From assembly GCA_027021085.1 (NCBI GenBank), contig JALUVB010000305.1:1-5094 (forward strand): a stretch of 5,094 bases of DNA, given 5' to 3'. Source of the stretch: a bacterium (GTDB taxonomy: Bacteria > CAIJMQ01 > JAADFP01). Positions 1 through 2,893 of this stretch are shown here, in pieces. The position numbers and the translations under genes were made by a program. The stretch's first letter is position 1. Each line of letters starts with the position of its first letter. The notes under the pieces were generated by a model. That model saw only the letters and a program-made list of their open reading frames with translations. It searched no databases and was not told the origin of the DNA.

Positions 1-290
1 AGGTATCCTTTTGGCAGTAGTGCAGTAACCAGGAGCCAGCGGGGTTCTGCCCCGGAAGTTACCACATCGTTGGCATTGACATGTACCAGGTACCATCCCT
101 GGAGTTTTCCGCTGAGCGTTATGGGGTCGGTCTTAAGAGCAAAGAATTTTTCTCCCATCTCTATCACTGCTACATCTCTTCCTATCCCGGGGCGGCTTAT
201 AATCCTTTTATCTTTGAGCGGTATGATAGAAAGAAGTTTTTCTAAAAAAGGAAACGGTAATTTTCCCAGGGGTAATCTATTATCTTTCAT
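1..290 (-). CDS. AIR synthase-related (PurM/HypE-like) protein, N-terminal part, cut by window edge
   Basis: This is a partial gene: 96 codons plus two bases are present and the rest lies beyond position 1. The translation begins MKDNRLPLGKLP. It carries a glycine-rich RPGIGRDVAVIE stretch at about residues 33-44, a KTDPIT motif at 53-58 and HVNANDVVTSGAEPRW at 70-85. These match the usual G-x-GIGEDAAVI, TDPI and VN-x-ND-x-x-x-x-GA-x-P pattern of the ATP-binding half of the PurM/HypE/ThiL/SelD superfamily. The closest fit is the AIR synthase-related, hydrogenase-maturation-like branch; ThiL is less likely. Arg38 stands where Glu is usual. The ATG (290-288) overlaps the xerD stop as ATGA, so the two are co-transcribed and probably translationally coupled. 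AAGAGG abuts the ATG too closely to be a normal SD, which fits coupling. Members presumably form or use an acyl-phosphate with ATP, but the substrate is unknown. Confidence 0.85.
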   Translation of the reverse strand, partial: MKDNRLPLGKLPFPFLEKLLSIIPLKDKRIISRPGIGRDVAVIEMGEKFFALKTDPITLSGKLQGWYLVHVNANDVVTSGAEPRWLLVTALLPKGY

Positions 291-1165
291 CCTCTTGGGT
301 GGTATTTCCTGTGCACTTCTTTTAAGTAACTCCTATCCACCTGCGTGTAAATCTGGGTAGTAGAGATATCCGCGTGTCCCAGAAGCTCCTGTACTATTCT
401 CAGGTCCGCTCCTCCCTGGAGCAGGTGGGTGGCAAAGGAATGCCGTAGTGTGTGAGGGGATACCTTTTTTATCCCTGCTTTCCTTGCCATTCTTTTTATC
501 ATTACCCATATTCCCTGCCGGGTGTAGGGCTTACCCTGCGGAGTAAGGAAGAGGCAGGGAGAATTGTTTTTATCCAGGGAGGGTCTTATTTCGGAGAGGT
601 ATTTTTTTATCCATTTTTCCGCTTCTTTACCGATAGGAATAATTCTTTCCTTCCCTCCCTTTCCTTTTACCCGCAGGAATCCTGCCTCCAGGTCAACTGC
701 GCTGCGGGGAAGGTCTACCAGCTCACTTACTCTCATGCCTGTGCCGTAAAGTACTTCCAGAATTGCCCGCCACTTTATGCCTTTCTTTGTTTCCGGGGAG
801 GGAAGCTCTAAAAGAGTCAGTACTTCTGCCTGGCTTAAAACATGCGGGAGCCTTTTGCCTCTGCGAAAGGAAAGAAGGTTTGCTGCCGGGTCTTCCTTGA
901 TGACTCCTTCCTGCATAAGAAACCGGATAAAACTTCTCACGGCGGATAACTTCCGGGCAATGGAACTCACCTGCAACCCCTTTTTCCTCAAGTGTATGAT
1001 AAATTTCCGCAGGTCCTCTTCCCTGATAGAGGCCGGGTCCCTTTTCTGTGCATGGAGAAAGTATCTGAACTGGGCAAGGTCCGAAGAATAACCGGAGAGG
1101 GTACGGGGAGAAAGCCCCCTTTCAATCTTAAGGTAGTAGAGGAAGTCGTTAATTACACTTTCCAT
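287..1165 (-). CDS. xerD: Site-specific tyrosine recombinase XerD
   Basis: This is a complete 292-residue tyrosine recombinase, close to the 298 residues of E. coli XerD. An N-terminal SAM-like core-binding domain (about 1-90) is followed by the catalytic domain (about 105-285). All six catalytic residues are present: Arg145 (GTGMRVSEL), Lys169 (KGKGGKER), His238 and Arg241 (HTLRHSFATH), His264 (LLGHADIS) and nucleophile Tyr273 (TQIYTQV). Their spacing follows E. coli XerD. The STTQIYT block and the HRKYHPRG C-terminus favour XerD over XerC. The family acts with XerC at dif to resolve chromosome dimers; no xerC is visible here, so a single-recombinase role is possible. The ATG at 1165 is the only plausible start: no ATG, GTG or TTG lies in frame between it and an upstream TAA, and the next Met is residue 84. 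No SD precedes it. The stop overlaps the next gene's start. Confidence 0.93.
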   Translation of the reverse strand: MESVINDFLYYLKIERGLSPRTLSGYSSDLAQFRYFLHAQKRDPASIREEDLRKFIIHLRKKGLQVSSIARKLSAVRSFIRFLMQEGVIKEDPAANLLSFRRGKRLPHVLSQAEVLTLLELPSPETKKGIKWRAILEVLYGTGMRVSELVDLPRSAVDLEAGFLRVKGKGGKERIIPIGKEAEKWIKKYLSEIRPSLDKNNSPCLFLTPQGKPYTRQGIWVMIKRMARKAGIKKVSPHTLRHSFATHLLQGGADLRIVQELLGHADISTTQIYTQVDRSYLKEVHRKYHPRG

Positions 1166-1207: not shown

Positions 1208-1246
1208 CCGGCAGGCAGAATTACCGGAAGAAATTAAGAAAGATAA

Positions 1247-1260
1247 TAGACTATAGACTG
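1247..1260. repeat. Heptamer tandem repeat, unit TAGACTR, two copies
   Basis: Two adjacent 7-bp units, TAGACTA and TAGACTG, differ only at the last base. The TAGAC core recurs in a second tandem pair at the right end of the window, right after tsaD. Two copies alone would be weak. The shared core and the neighbouring heptamers of other sequence make it credible. Confidence 0.6.
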
Positions 1261-1261
1261 G

Positions 1262-1289
1262 GTGAATAGTGAACAGTGAAGAGTGAATG
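1262..1289. repeat. Heptamer tandem repeat, unit GTGAANR, four copies
   Basis: Four exact-phase 7-bp units fill 28 bp: GTGAA is invariant, the sixth base is T, C, G, T and the seventh A, A, A, G. A stray GTGAACA lies at 1429-1435, out of phase. The unit length is not a multiple of three and the array contains TGA and TAG triplets, so it is not coding. Confidence 0.85.
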
Positions 1290-1294
1290 GGTTT

Positions 1295-1340
1295 CCTGTC
1301 TGCCTTCCCCGACCTAAAGTCGGGATCGGGAGCAGGCGGG
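1295..1340. repeat. Imperfect inverted repeat / two-tier hairpin
   Basis: The outer arms CCTGTCTGC (1295-1303) and GCAGGCGGG (1332-1340) pair over nine positions, with two G-U pairs if transcribed. The inner arms CCCGAC (1308-1313) and GTCGGG (1319-1324) pair perfectly around a CTAAA loop. TCGGGA is duplicated in tandem (1320-1331), so the inner helix can slip. There is no T tract, and the element lies upstream of both flanking genes, so it is not a terminator for either. It resembles an intergenic REP-like element; multicopy status is untested. Confidence 0.6.
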
Positions 1341-1343
1341 TAT

Positions 1344-1355
1344 GTCAGTACTGAC
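1344..1355. repeat. Perfect 12-bp palindrome
   Basis: GTCAGTACTGAC is its own reverse complement. It could be an operator half-site pair or the centre of a mobile-like repeat. It lies about 135 bp upstream of the rightward promoter and about 160 bp from the xerD promoter, so direct control of either is only conjecture. Confidence 0.5.
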
Positions 1356-1362
1356 AACTCTT
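1349..1362. repeat. Short relative of the AACTNNN heptamer, two units
   Basis: The units TACTGAC and AACTCTT share the ACT core and 7-bp phase with the larger array at 1390-1424. This pair overlaps the 12-bp palindrome. It is weak on its own and is listed because it extends the same motif class. Confidence 0.4.
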
Positions 1363-1389
1363 CCAGGATACAGGCGGGGGAACAGGTGG

Positions 1390-1424
1390 AACTAACAACT
1401 CACAACTAAGAACTGGCAACTTCT
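1390..1424. repeat. Heptamer tandem repeat, unit AACTNNN, five copies
   Basis: Five consecutive 7-bp units fill exactly 35 bp. AACT is invariant in every unit; the last three bases vary (AAC, CAC, AAG, GGC, TCT). The first three units are close copies and the last two have drifted. Unit length equals that of the unrelated arrays at 1247 and 1262, so a common expansion mechanism is likely. Confidence 0.85.
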
Positions 1425-1489
1425 CCCGGTGAACATGGGGAAAAGAGCAGGAAGAATTTTTCCAATATGTTATGGACTTATACATTACC

Positions 1490-1518
1490 TTGACTTGGAG
1501 AAGCTTTAATGGTAAATT
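1490..1518 (+). promoter_or_regulatory. Sigma-70-type promoter candidate for the rightward operon
   Basis: A -35 of TTGACT (1490-1495, five of six consensus bases) is separated by 17 bp from a -10 of TAAATT (1513-1518, four of six). An A/T-rich stretch lies just upstream. The predicted start near 1525 leaves a leader of about 19 bases that contains the strong SD at 1528-1534. No other promoter as good is seen before the tiny gene. Confidence 0.6.
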
Positions 1519-1534: not shown

Positions 1535-1543
1535 AAAATTGAT

Positions 1544-1639
1544 ATGCCTTGTGGAAGAAAAAGATTAAGAAGAAAAATGAAAACTCACAAGTTGAGAAAA
1601 AGAAGGAAACGGGACCGTCACAAGAAAAAGAATCACTGA
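1544..1639 (+). CDS. 31-residue, extremely basic protein, COX24/AURKAIP1-like, probably ribosome-associated
   Basis: ATG to TGA encodes 31 residues starting MPCGRKRLRRKMKTHKLRK. Eighteen residues are Lys or Arg, three are His and only Asp24 is acidic. The pattern MPxG-K/R-rich, then KMxTHK, then RKRxRxRHKKK matches from memory the tiny basic proteins annotated as COX24/AURKAIP1-like in Bacteroidota and candidate phyla, and resembles in size and composition actinobacterial ribosomal protein bS22. Such a peptide would bind rRNA; I infer a ribosomal or ribosome-associated role rather than see it. The strong SD and a promoter upstream support real expression. It heads the rightward unit, with 30 bp and no terminator before the S41 protease gene. 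Cys3 is the only cysteine. The coding assignment is firm; the family assignment is moderate. Confidence 0.75.
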   Translation: MPCGRKRLRRKMKTHKLRKRRKRDRHKKKNH

Positions 1640-1669: not shown

Positions 1670-2893
1670 ATGAAGCGTAAATTAGCCTTATTAGTTTTTT
1701 CTTTTGCACTTCTCGTTTTCCTTGCCGGCAACTCTCCCTCCCAGGAAGGAACTATTTACCCGCAGCTTAAGCTTTTTGCCAAAGTTATTGCTATTGTTCA
1801 GCAGAGCTACGTCAAGGAAGTGCCCACAAAAACTCTCATTGAGGGTGCCCTAAAGGGAATGATTGCCTCCCTGGACCCTTACAGCGAATTTATGACTCCC
1901 CAGGAATACGAGGATATGAAGATAGAGACGGAGGGTAAGTTCGGCGGAGTGGGGATGGTAATCACCTCGGAAAAGGGAATAATCACTGTTATCTCTCCCA
2001 TTGAGGATACTCCCGCCTTCCGGGCAGGGATAAAGCCGAGAGATAAAATCATAGAGATTGAGGGGGAATCTACCAAAGGCTGGAGCACACAAAAAGCTGC
2101 CCACAAGTTGAGGGGCAAACCTGGCACCAAGGTTAACTTCAAGGTATGGAGAGAAGGAGACAACGGCGTAAAATCTTTTACTATTACCCGGGAGATCATA
2201 AAGATAAAGAGCGTAAAGGGCCCCAAGATTTTTGACGGTAAAATTGCTTATATCCGCTTGAGTGTCTTCCGGGATGGAATAGACAGGGAGTTAAAGCGTG
2301 CTCTGTCCAAGGTCAAGGAGCAACATGTTTCTGCCCTGATCCTGGATTTAAGAAATAACCCGGGAGGATTGCTGGATGAAGCGGTTAAGGTAAGCGATTT
2401 ATTCCTGCCCCGGGGAAAGCTCGTGGTTTATACCCAGGGAAGAAATAATAAAAATAGAAATGATTACTTCTCTACCAGTGATCCCTATTTCACTTCGCCT
2501 TACCCGATAGTGATTATGGTGAACAAGGGGAGTGCTTCTGCTTCTGAAATAGTCTCTGCGGCTCTTAAGGACTGGGGAATAGGAATCTTACTGGGCGAGA
2601 AGACTTTCGGTAAGGGGTCTGTGCAGAGTATATTGCCCGTGGGAGATGGCTACACCTTGCGGCTTACTACCGCCCATTACTATACACCTGCTAACATATG
2701 TATAGAAGGAAAAGGACTGACACCCGATATAAAGGTAAGCCTGAAGCCGGAAGAAGAGAAGAAAGTAATAGAAGCATTCATAGAAGGTAAAGAAGAAGGC
2801 GATATTCAGCTCCAGAGGGCCCTGGAATTTCTAAAGCAGAAAATGAGCAAATCTGATAAAAAAGTAATATCGAAGAATAAAGTTGCAAATTAG
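1670..2893 (+). CDS. Carboxyl-terminal processing protease, S41 family (CtpA-like), periplasmic
   Basis: This is a 407-residue serine protease with an intact Ser-Lys-Gln centre. MKRKLALLVF and the following hydrophobic run to about residue 20 form a Sec signal; no lipobox Cys is present. The helical N-terminal part (about 28-85) contains GMIASLDPYSEFM. A PDZ domain covers about 90-165 (KFGGVGMVI to VWREG), and the S41 core about 185-360. Ser290 in GSASASEI, Lys315 and Gln319 in KTFGKGSVQ have the CtpB spacing (Lys 25 after Ser, Gln 4 after Lys). PDZ-gated proteases of this type trim C-termini of envelope proteins and control wall hydrolases; the substrate here is unknown. The ATG at 1670 follows AAGGTGG (1660-1666). 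The usual SGRS-like turn before the GKG-x-TPD motif is replaced by ANIC at 341-344. A Lys-rich tail of about 45 residues ends the protein. Confidence 0.93.
   Translation: MKRKLALLVFSFALLVFLAGNSPSQEGTIYPQLKLFAKVIAIVQQSYVKEVPTKTLIEGALKGMIASLDPYSEFMTPQEYEDMKIETEGKFGGVGMVITSEKGIITVISPIEDTPAFRAGIKPRDKIIEIEGESTKGWSTQKAAHKLRGKPGTKVNFKVWREGDNGVKSFTITREIIKIKSVKGPKIFDGKIAYIRLSVFRDGIDRELKRALSKVKEQHVSALILDLRNNPGGLLDEAVKVSDLFLPRGKLVVYTQGRNNKNRNDYFSTSDPYFTSPYPIVIMVNKGSASASEIVSAALKDWGIGILLGEKTFGKGSVQSILPVGDGYTLRLTTAHYYTPANICIEGKGLTPDIKVSLKPEEEKKVIEAFIEGKEEGDIQLQRALEFLKQKMSKSDKKVISKNKVAN

Follow-up and report, generated by a model that had tools for sequence, protein, structure and literature searches.

The window, by which we mean the whole stretch of 5,094 nucleotides analyzed here, is contig 305 of a 1.93-Mb MAG (G000) consisting of 307 contigs, with 94% completeness and 3.9% contamination. 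The closest named relative of its TsaD protein belongs to the MAG Caldisericota bacterium M_MaxBin.041 (92% identity), and by this comparison the host is Caldisericota-like and not cyanobacterial. Between a XerD-like gene and the next operon lies a spacer of 380 bp, most of which is taken up by a non-coding repeat element that carries three tandem arrays of heptamers and a GC-rich inverted repeat (Table 1). The next small open reading frame lies ∼120 bp beyond the end of the arrays. A very basic reading frame of ∼31 codons (MPCGRKRLRRKMKTHK...), located at window positions 1543–1638 and conserved in the congener, looks like a small ribosome-associated protein; it has no match in Pfam or NCBIfam.

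Table 1. Features of the window and inverted AGT array pairs in other lineages.
Feature	Location	Strand	Remarks
XerD-type tyrosine recombinase gene, flanking	287..1165	-	
ATTACC at left border, candidate target-site duplication (6 bp)	1220..1225	.	single in the empty site (L108)
Inserted repeat element, 258 bp, non-coding	1226..1483	+	not in orthologous spacer of same-genus genome; other copies exist
Family A array, 2 units ATAGACT (minus strand AGTCTAT)	1246..1259	-	sequence; copy comparison
Family B array, 4 units RGTGAAN (GGTGAAT AGTGAAC AGTGAAG AGTGAAT)	1261..1288	+	sequence; shuffle test
GC-rich inverted repeat (CCTGTCTGCC..CCCGAC/GTCGGG..GCAGGCGGG)	1295..1340	.	kept in 3/3 element copies
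Weak family C pair, in register, CAGTACT GACAACT	1346..1359	-	sequence; shuffle test
Family C array, 5 units TGGAACT AACAACT CACAACT AAGAACT GGCAACT (minus strand AGTTNNN)	1387..1421	-	sequence; shuffle test
ATTACC at right border, candidate target-site duplication (6 bp)	1484..1489	.	single in the empty site (L108)
Sigma-70-like promoter TTGACT-17-TAAATT	1490..1518	+	just past element; also in empty site; one such site expected by chance in scanned region
S41 (CtpB-like) peptidase gene, flanking	1670..2893	+	91% identical in same-genus genome
Inverted AGT pairs, other lineages	G372:C13:40880/40942, C14:8661/8709, C22:12426/12484; G363:C31:14451/14486		

The first-pass annotation had described tandem arrays with a period of exactly 7 bp in this spacer and had judged chance an improbable source of the 4- and 5-unit ones. 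Both statements hold: the arrays comprise two ATAGACT, four RGTGAAN, and five NNNNACT units together with a weaker pair, and none of 1000 dinucleotide shuffles of the 380-bp spacer reached any of its three highest scores for a period-7 segment, whereas periods other than 7 scored low in the same test. Its further statement that the three arrays are unrelated and share no common sequence is incorrect. When each array is read on the proper strand, AGT recurs at 7-bp spacing in all three (AGTCTAT on the minus strand, AGTGAAC on the plus strand, and AGTTGTG/AGTTGCC on the minus strand), so that all three conform to AGTNNNN. The same pattern dominates the genome, in which AGT-N4-AGT-N4-AGT-N4-AGT is matched 332 times (184 + 148) compared with 7 times (6 + 1) for the reversed pattern; this count and the shuffles together rule out a chance origin. 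An assembly artefact was likewise rejected, as arrays of 14–50 bp are shorter than the read length and are not clearly enriched at contig ends (3 of 40 ends with an expected fraction of 0.052, and 4 of 68 with 0.033). No Rfam match identifies the spacer as a structured RNA, and the array segments fold no better than shuffled sequence; the modest folding z, about −2, is due to the GC hairpin and not to the arrays.

The genome-wide scan for period 7 that the first-pass annotation had proposed reveals the expected intergenic excess. Within 376 kb of sampled sequence, base identity in noncoding DNA at a lag of 7 is 0.349, relative to ∼0.25–0.30 at most of the others; harmonics appear at lags of 14 and 21, and 20 contigs chosen regardless of arrays give the same lag-7 value. 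The coding DNA of this sample has no lag-7 peak, which rules out coding periodicity as the source. Noncoding arrays number 122 at period 7 and 0–4 at other periods, the harmonic at 14 aside; a larger sample holds 204 at period 7 and 10 at period 8. When 224 noncoding arrays of period 7 from 563 kb of sampled sequence were classified, 199 had an RGT core. The unit families of the window recur elsewhere in the genome, as had been anticipated, and at least four word families can be distinguished: A (RGTCTAW), B (RGTRARY), C (AGTTGYK), and D (RGTAGYG). The hundreds of arrays, together with hairpins, form mosaic intergenic elements of recurring order, in which a family A array on the minus strand is followed by a family B array on the plus strand 31 times, as against 3 times in the reversed arrangement, with a linker of mostly 2–9 bp. 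Such modules are dispersed copies, so this fixed grammar may simply be inherited.

Several smaller features accompany the arrays. GC-rich hairpins are interspersed with them, as are short 8-bp arrays (GGTATCCT among others) that likewise bear RGT. The period-8 arrays (GGTATCCT, RGTGAGTA) occur in the same noncoding regions, for example at L033:3877–3917, L135:10656–10705, and L148:8907–8941, and pairs of GGT at a distance of 8 are found at 6.3 times background in G000. Among the dispersed hairpins situated beside arrays, TGCCTGC-N-GCAGGCA was counted 19 times and ATTCCYGC-N-GCRGGAAT 16 times in 588 kb of G000; hairpins of this kind are seen in spacers of both G000 and its congener G001, as at about 1060–1090 of L047.

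The element in the window is itself a dispersed repeat. A BLAST search with the spacer identified two further near full-length copies, at C160:8110–8335 (97%) and C257:2324–2602 (89%), the latter corresponding to window positions 1227–1484, with the same right border as the window copy, a left border within 1 bp of it, and flanks that diverge on both sides; only two of the three have an exact right border. At the orthologous locus of a same-genus genome (L108), which is 87% identical in DNA alongside, the spacer lacks window positions 1226–1483, and ATTACC, which stands once at each border of the element in the window, is present there as a single copy. The simplest reading is that the 258-bp element inserted, with duplication of a 6-bp target, after the split of this genome from its same-genus relative; insertion is well supported by this comparison of sequences, and the target duplication is a candidate seen in one copy, that of the window, the C257 copy having no clear duplication of its target. 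The three copies differ in the number of family A units (2 in the window, 5 in C160, and 4 in C257) and of family B units (4, 4, and 5, respectively). MITEs and similar small non-autonomous elements are alike in being short, non-coding, and dispersed, with an empty site and a candidate 6-bp target duplication. Inspection of the ends of the present element revealed no terminal inverted repeats, however, and a parental transposase was not found.

In two of the three copies (window and C257), the −35 box of a sigma-70-like promoter starts 5–6 bp past the right end of the element. The matches to the promoter consensus are 9/12 and 11/12, for which the chance per random position is 0.022 and 0.0007, respectively. 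It is as if insertion just upstream of promoters were favoured or tolerated, a point that we record purely as an observation.

Comparison of homologous module copies at ≥90% identity reveals how the arrays change. Among indels of at least 4 nt, 52 of 85 within arrays are multiples of 7 (36 of 7 nt and 12 of 14 nt), compared with 15 of 57 outside arrays; unit number thus varies in steps of 7, in line with the variable copy number that the first-pass annotation had named as support for a genome-wide heptamer system. Of 36 units gained or lost, only 3 match a neighbour exactly. Mismatch rates across unit positions 1–7 are 0.11, 0.01, 0.03, 0.23, 0.08, 0.27, and 0.35, against 0.13 in the flanks, although repeat alignments may be out of register; in register-anchored arrays, the corresponding values are 0.11, 0.02, 0.04, 0.19, 0.15, 0.25, and 0.35, against 0.11. 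The core GT is therefore conserved below the flank rate, while positions 4–7 on the whole vary faster than the flanks. Because the reference copy supplied the RGT by which arrays were located, the apparent rate at positions 1–3 may be halved for that reason alone, but this ascertainment cannot account for a fivefold drop at position 2.

Identical neighbouring units are likewise scarce. They make up 28 of 558 neighbouring pairs, whereas shuffles within arrays yield 48.2 (sd 5.0) and none of 2000 shuffles is as low. The congener deviates in the same direction without significance (8 observed and 10.4 expected), and in the more distant array-bearing genomes G121, G363, and G372, the deficit is weak or absent; a significant deficit of identical neighbours is thus confined to this genome. 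Plain slippage of identical units, one of the mechanisms initially considered, is disfavoured here, as neighbours are identical less often than chance would have it.

These data bear on the possibility of pure polymerase slippage, in which the period derives from a 7-nt contact length of the polymerase and sequence is irrelevant, a hypothesis that two later papers (PMC4679880 and PMC4692102) credit to Mrazek et al. (2007). Consistent with it, period 7 outranks other periods here and in several genomes with different cores, indels come in whole-unit steps, heptamers are over-represented in published work, and some genomes contain perfect arrays, such as AGTCCAT in G121. Nearly all arrays of the present genome nevertheless share RGT, their neighbours are depleted of identity, positions 2–3 change several times less than positions 4–7, and 8-bp arrays with an RGT core exist as well, so that we regard this explanation as unlikely. 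The original proposal of a mechanism that measures length, with different cores and length as the sole determinant, is not supported, for a related reason: RGT is found in nearly all arrays of this genome, and mostly in the minor 8-bp arrays too, which argues that sequence matters. A preference for length may yet stand as a second ingredient, since period 7 persists with other cores across bacteria.

Conservation of the core could also reflect function. An array selected for binding would be the target, as DNA or as RNA, of a protein (a repeat-binding regulator, nucleoid protein, or RNA chaperone) that recognizes RGT every 7 bases, and the variable bases would serve to reduce slippage. Conservation of GT below the flank rate, the fixed relative orientation of the families, the avoidance of identical neighbours, and the regulatory roles proposed for TAACTGA repeats are all compatible with this model. 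It is harder to reconcile with the wholesale differences between orthologous spacers of the two congeneric genomes, as array content differs in nearly every one of 21 spacers compared and some sites are free of arrays. Arrays also occupy convergent, divergent, and co-directional spacers alike, with no clear link to starts seen, and a binding protein has not been identified. We thus consider selection for binding a possibility of low probability.

The phenomenon extends well beyond the genus. Among 386 genomes from across the domain, 116 were found to contain five-unit AGT arrays, and AGT arrays built from other words occur in many bacterial families, with lineage-specific words that include AGTCCAT and AGTTATR in G121, AGTGGTT and AGTAGGA in G363, and AGTTTTA and AGTGTTA in G372. 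Of the 76 genomes with at least 10 five-unit matches, 29 have a threefold excess of AGT over the reversed control and 18 a threefold excess of the control over AGT. This split, along with the other cores in G337, rules out AGT as a universal core; as other genomes favour other cores, RGT is common but not universal. The genome G337, seen at locus L173 (G337:C1), is dense in heptamer arrays, with many families that lack AGT (CCTGATC, AGAGCAT, and ATGAAGG, with lengths of up to 144 bp). Further lineages have AGT arrays in closely spaced inverted pairs, in which a plus-strand array is followed by a minus-strand array at a distance of tens of bp; such pairs could fold into hairpins (Table 1).

The distribution of candidate enzymes was compared with that of the arrays. 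Addition of units by a reverse transcriptase or other template-driven machinery (DGR, retron, group II intron, or telomerase-like), with RNA templates sharing ACT at their ends, would account for a constant 3-nt core used in realignment, for the variability of the 4 nt added each time, and for the differences between neighbours. RVT_1 (PF00078), however, has no match in this genome, the congener, or three class relatives searched, and is missing from 9 of 13 array-rich genomes, making this route highly improbable. Mobilization as a REP/RAYT-type element by a Y1 (HUH) transposase would fit with the presence of hairpins and with Y1_Tnp matches in 11 of the 13 array-rich genomes, with two such matches in this genome. 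Y1_Tnp was nonetheless not found in the congener G001 or in G004 (86% and 92% complete), both of which have AGT arrays. Y1 insertion normally proceeds without target duplication, and the duplication of ATTACC departs from that pattern. We deem this alternative very unlikely, and neither a reverse transcriptase nor a Y1 transposase is supported as required machinery by its distribution in array-rich genomes.

The closest known counterparts are the STRR sequences of cyanobacteria and the TAACTGA repeats. As in the STRRs of filamentous cyanobacteria, the arrays are tandem, degenerate 7-bp units in intergenic, noncoding DNA, with several families and many loci per genome. The likeness extends to words: plasmid A of the cyanobacterium Trichormus variabilis carries arrays of AGTGAAC AGTAAAC AGTTATC and of AGTCATT, with the same core as here and two words that belong to family B. 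Homologues on plasmids or phages were not found. The STRR parallel drawn in the first-pass annotation, along with its doubt that the genome is cyanobacterial, was therefore well placed. Because the host is Caldisericota-like, the arrays work like STRRs without being members of the cyanobacterial family; they differ further in that nearly all families share RGT, whereas the Trichormus plasmid also has AATTNNN families, and in that they sit in composite elements of fixed order.

TAACTGA direct repeats have been described in Maribeggiatoa, cyanobacteria, and Bacteroidetes, with 7-nt indels between Cyanothece strains (MacGregor, 2015; PMC4679880). Their rotated reverse complement, AGTTATC, has an AGT core, and they too are intergenic and mostly of 2–6 units. 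They consist of one exact word, with related words being rare, and lie largely near start codons (PMC4679880), whereas here four degenerate families mix and no start-codon link was seen; AGTTATC is not among the common units of this genome. The G-rich heptamers of the GGGAATC type in Xanthomonas and Nostoc (Rehm, 2015; PMC4692102) share the period of 7, intergenic location, inverted pairs, and variable unit number, but their G-rich core can form G-quadruplexes, and no such core exists here. At a more general level, the SPADE survey ranks tandem heptamers first in abundance among the tandem DNA repeats that lie between prokaryotic genes, and its authors see no clear indication of what they do (Mori, 2018; PMC6344855). 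The present arrays are one instance of that phenomenon, with a core and an element structure that the part of the survey available to us does not describe. We thus read them as a variant of a known, still unexplained class of bacterial intergenic repeats.

The explanation that we favour, with somewhat better than even confidence, is that these are STRR-like arrays with RGT-anchored turnover of whole units, carried in composite elements that spread by insertion. It joins the observed presence or absence of the element at an orthologous site, its dispersal, length change by whole units, and conservation of the core. Whole units would be gained or lost through misalignment in the course of replication or recombination, and the shared RGT, spaced at 7 bp, would be the anchor that sets the register. 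Units that keep RGT would stay in the exchange pool and those without the core would leave it, while positions 4–7 would drift and be shuffled. If identical neighbours are lost fastest, surviving arrays would come to look degenerate. The composite elements would spread by insertion, probably via a putative transposase acting in trans. Conservation of GT could instead reflect selection for binding, and local misalignment alone does not explain a core common to several phyla. A bolder reading, which we hold to be quite doubtful, is that RGT repeated every 7 bases serves some bacterial factor, in many phyla, as a general code for recognition or alignment; the factor would build, maintain, or bind intergenic arrays with any four bases between the cores. 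Were this so, STRRs, TAACTGA repeats, and the arrays described here would be dialects of one system.

These repeats belong to what are reported to be the commonest tandem repeats of prokaryotic intergenic DNA, for which no explanation is generally accepted. The RGT core, the contrast in conservation within units, the scarcity of identical neighbours, and the empty site serve to separate models based on length only from those based on core plus length, and both can now be tested, in culturable cyanobacteria as well as in a single array-rich lineage.
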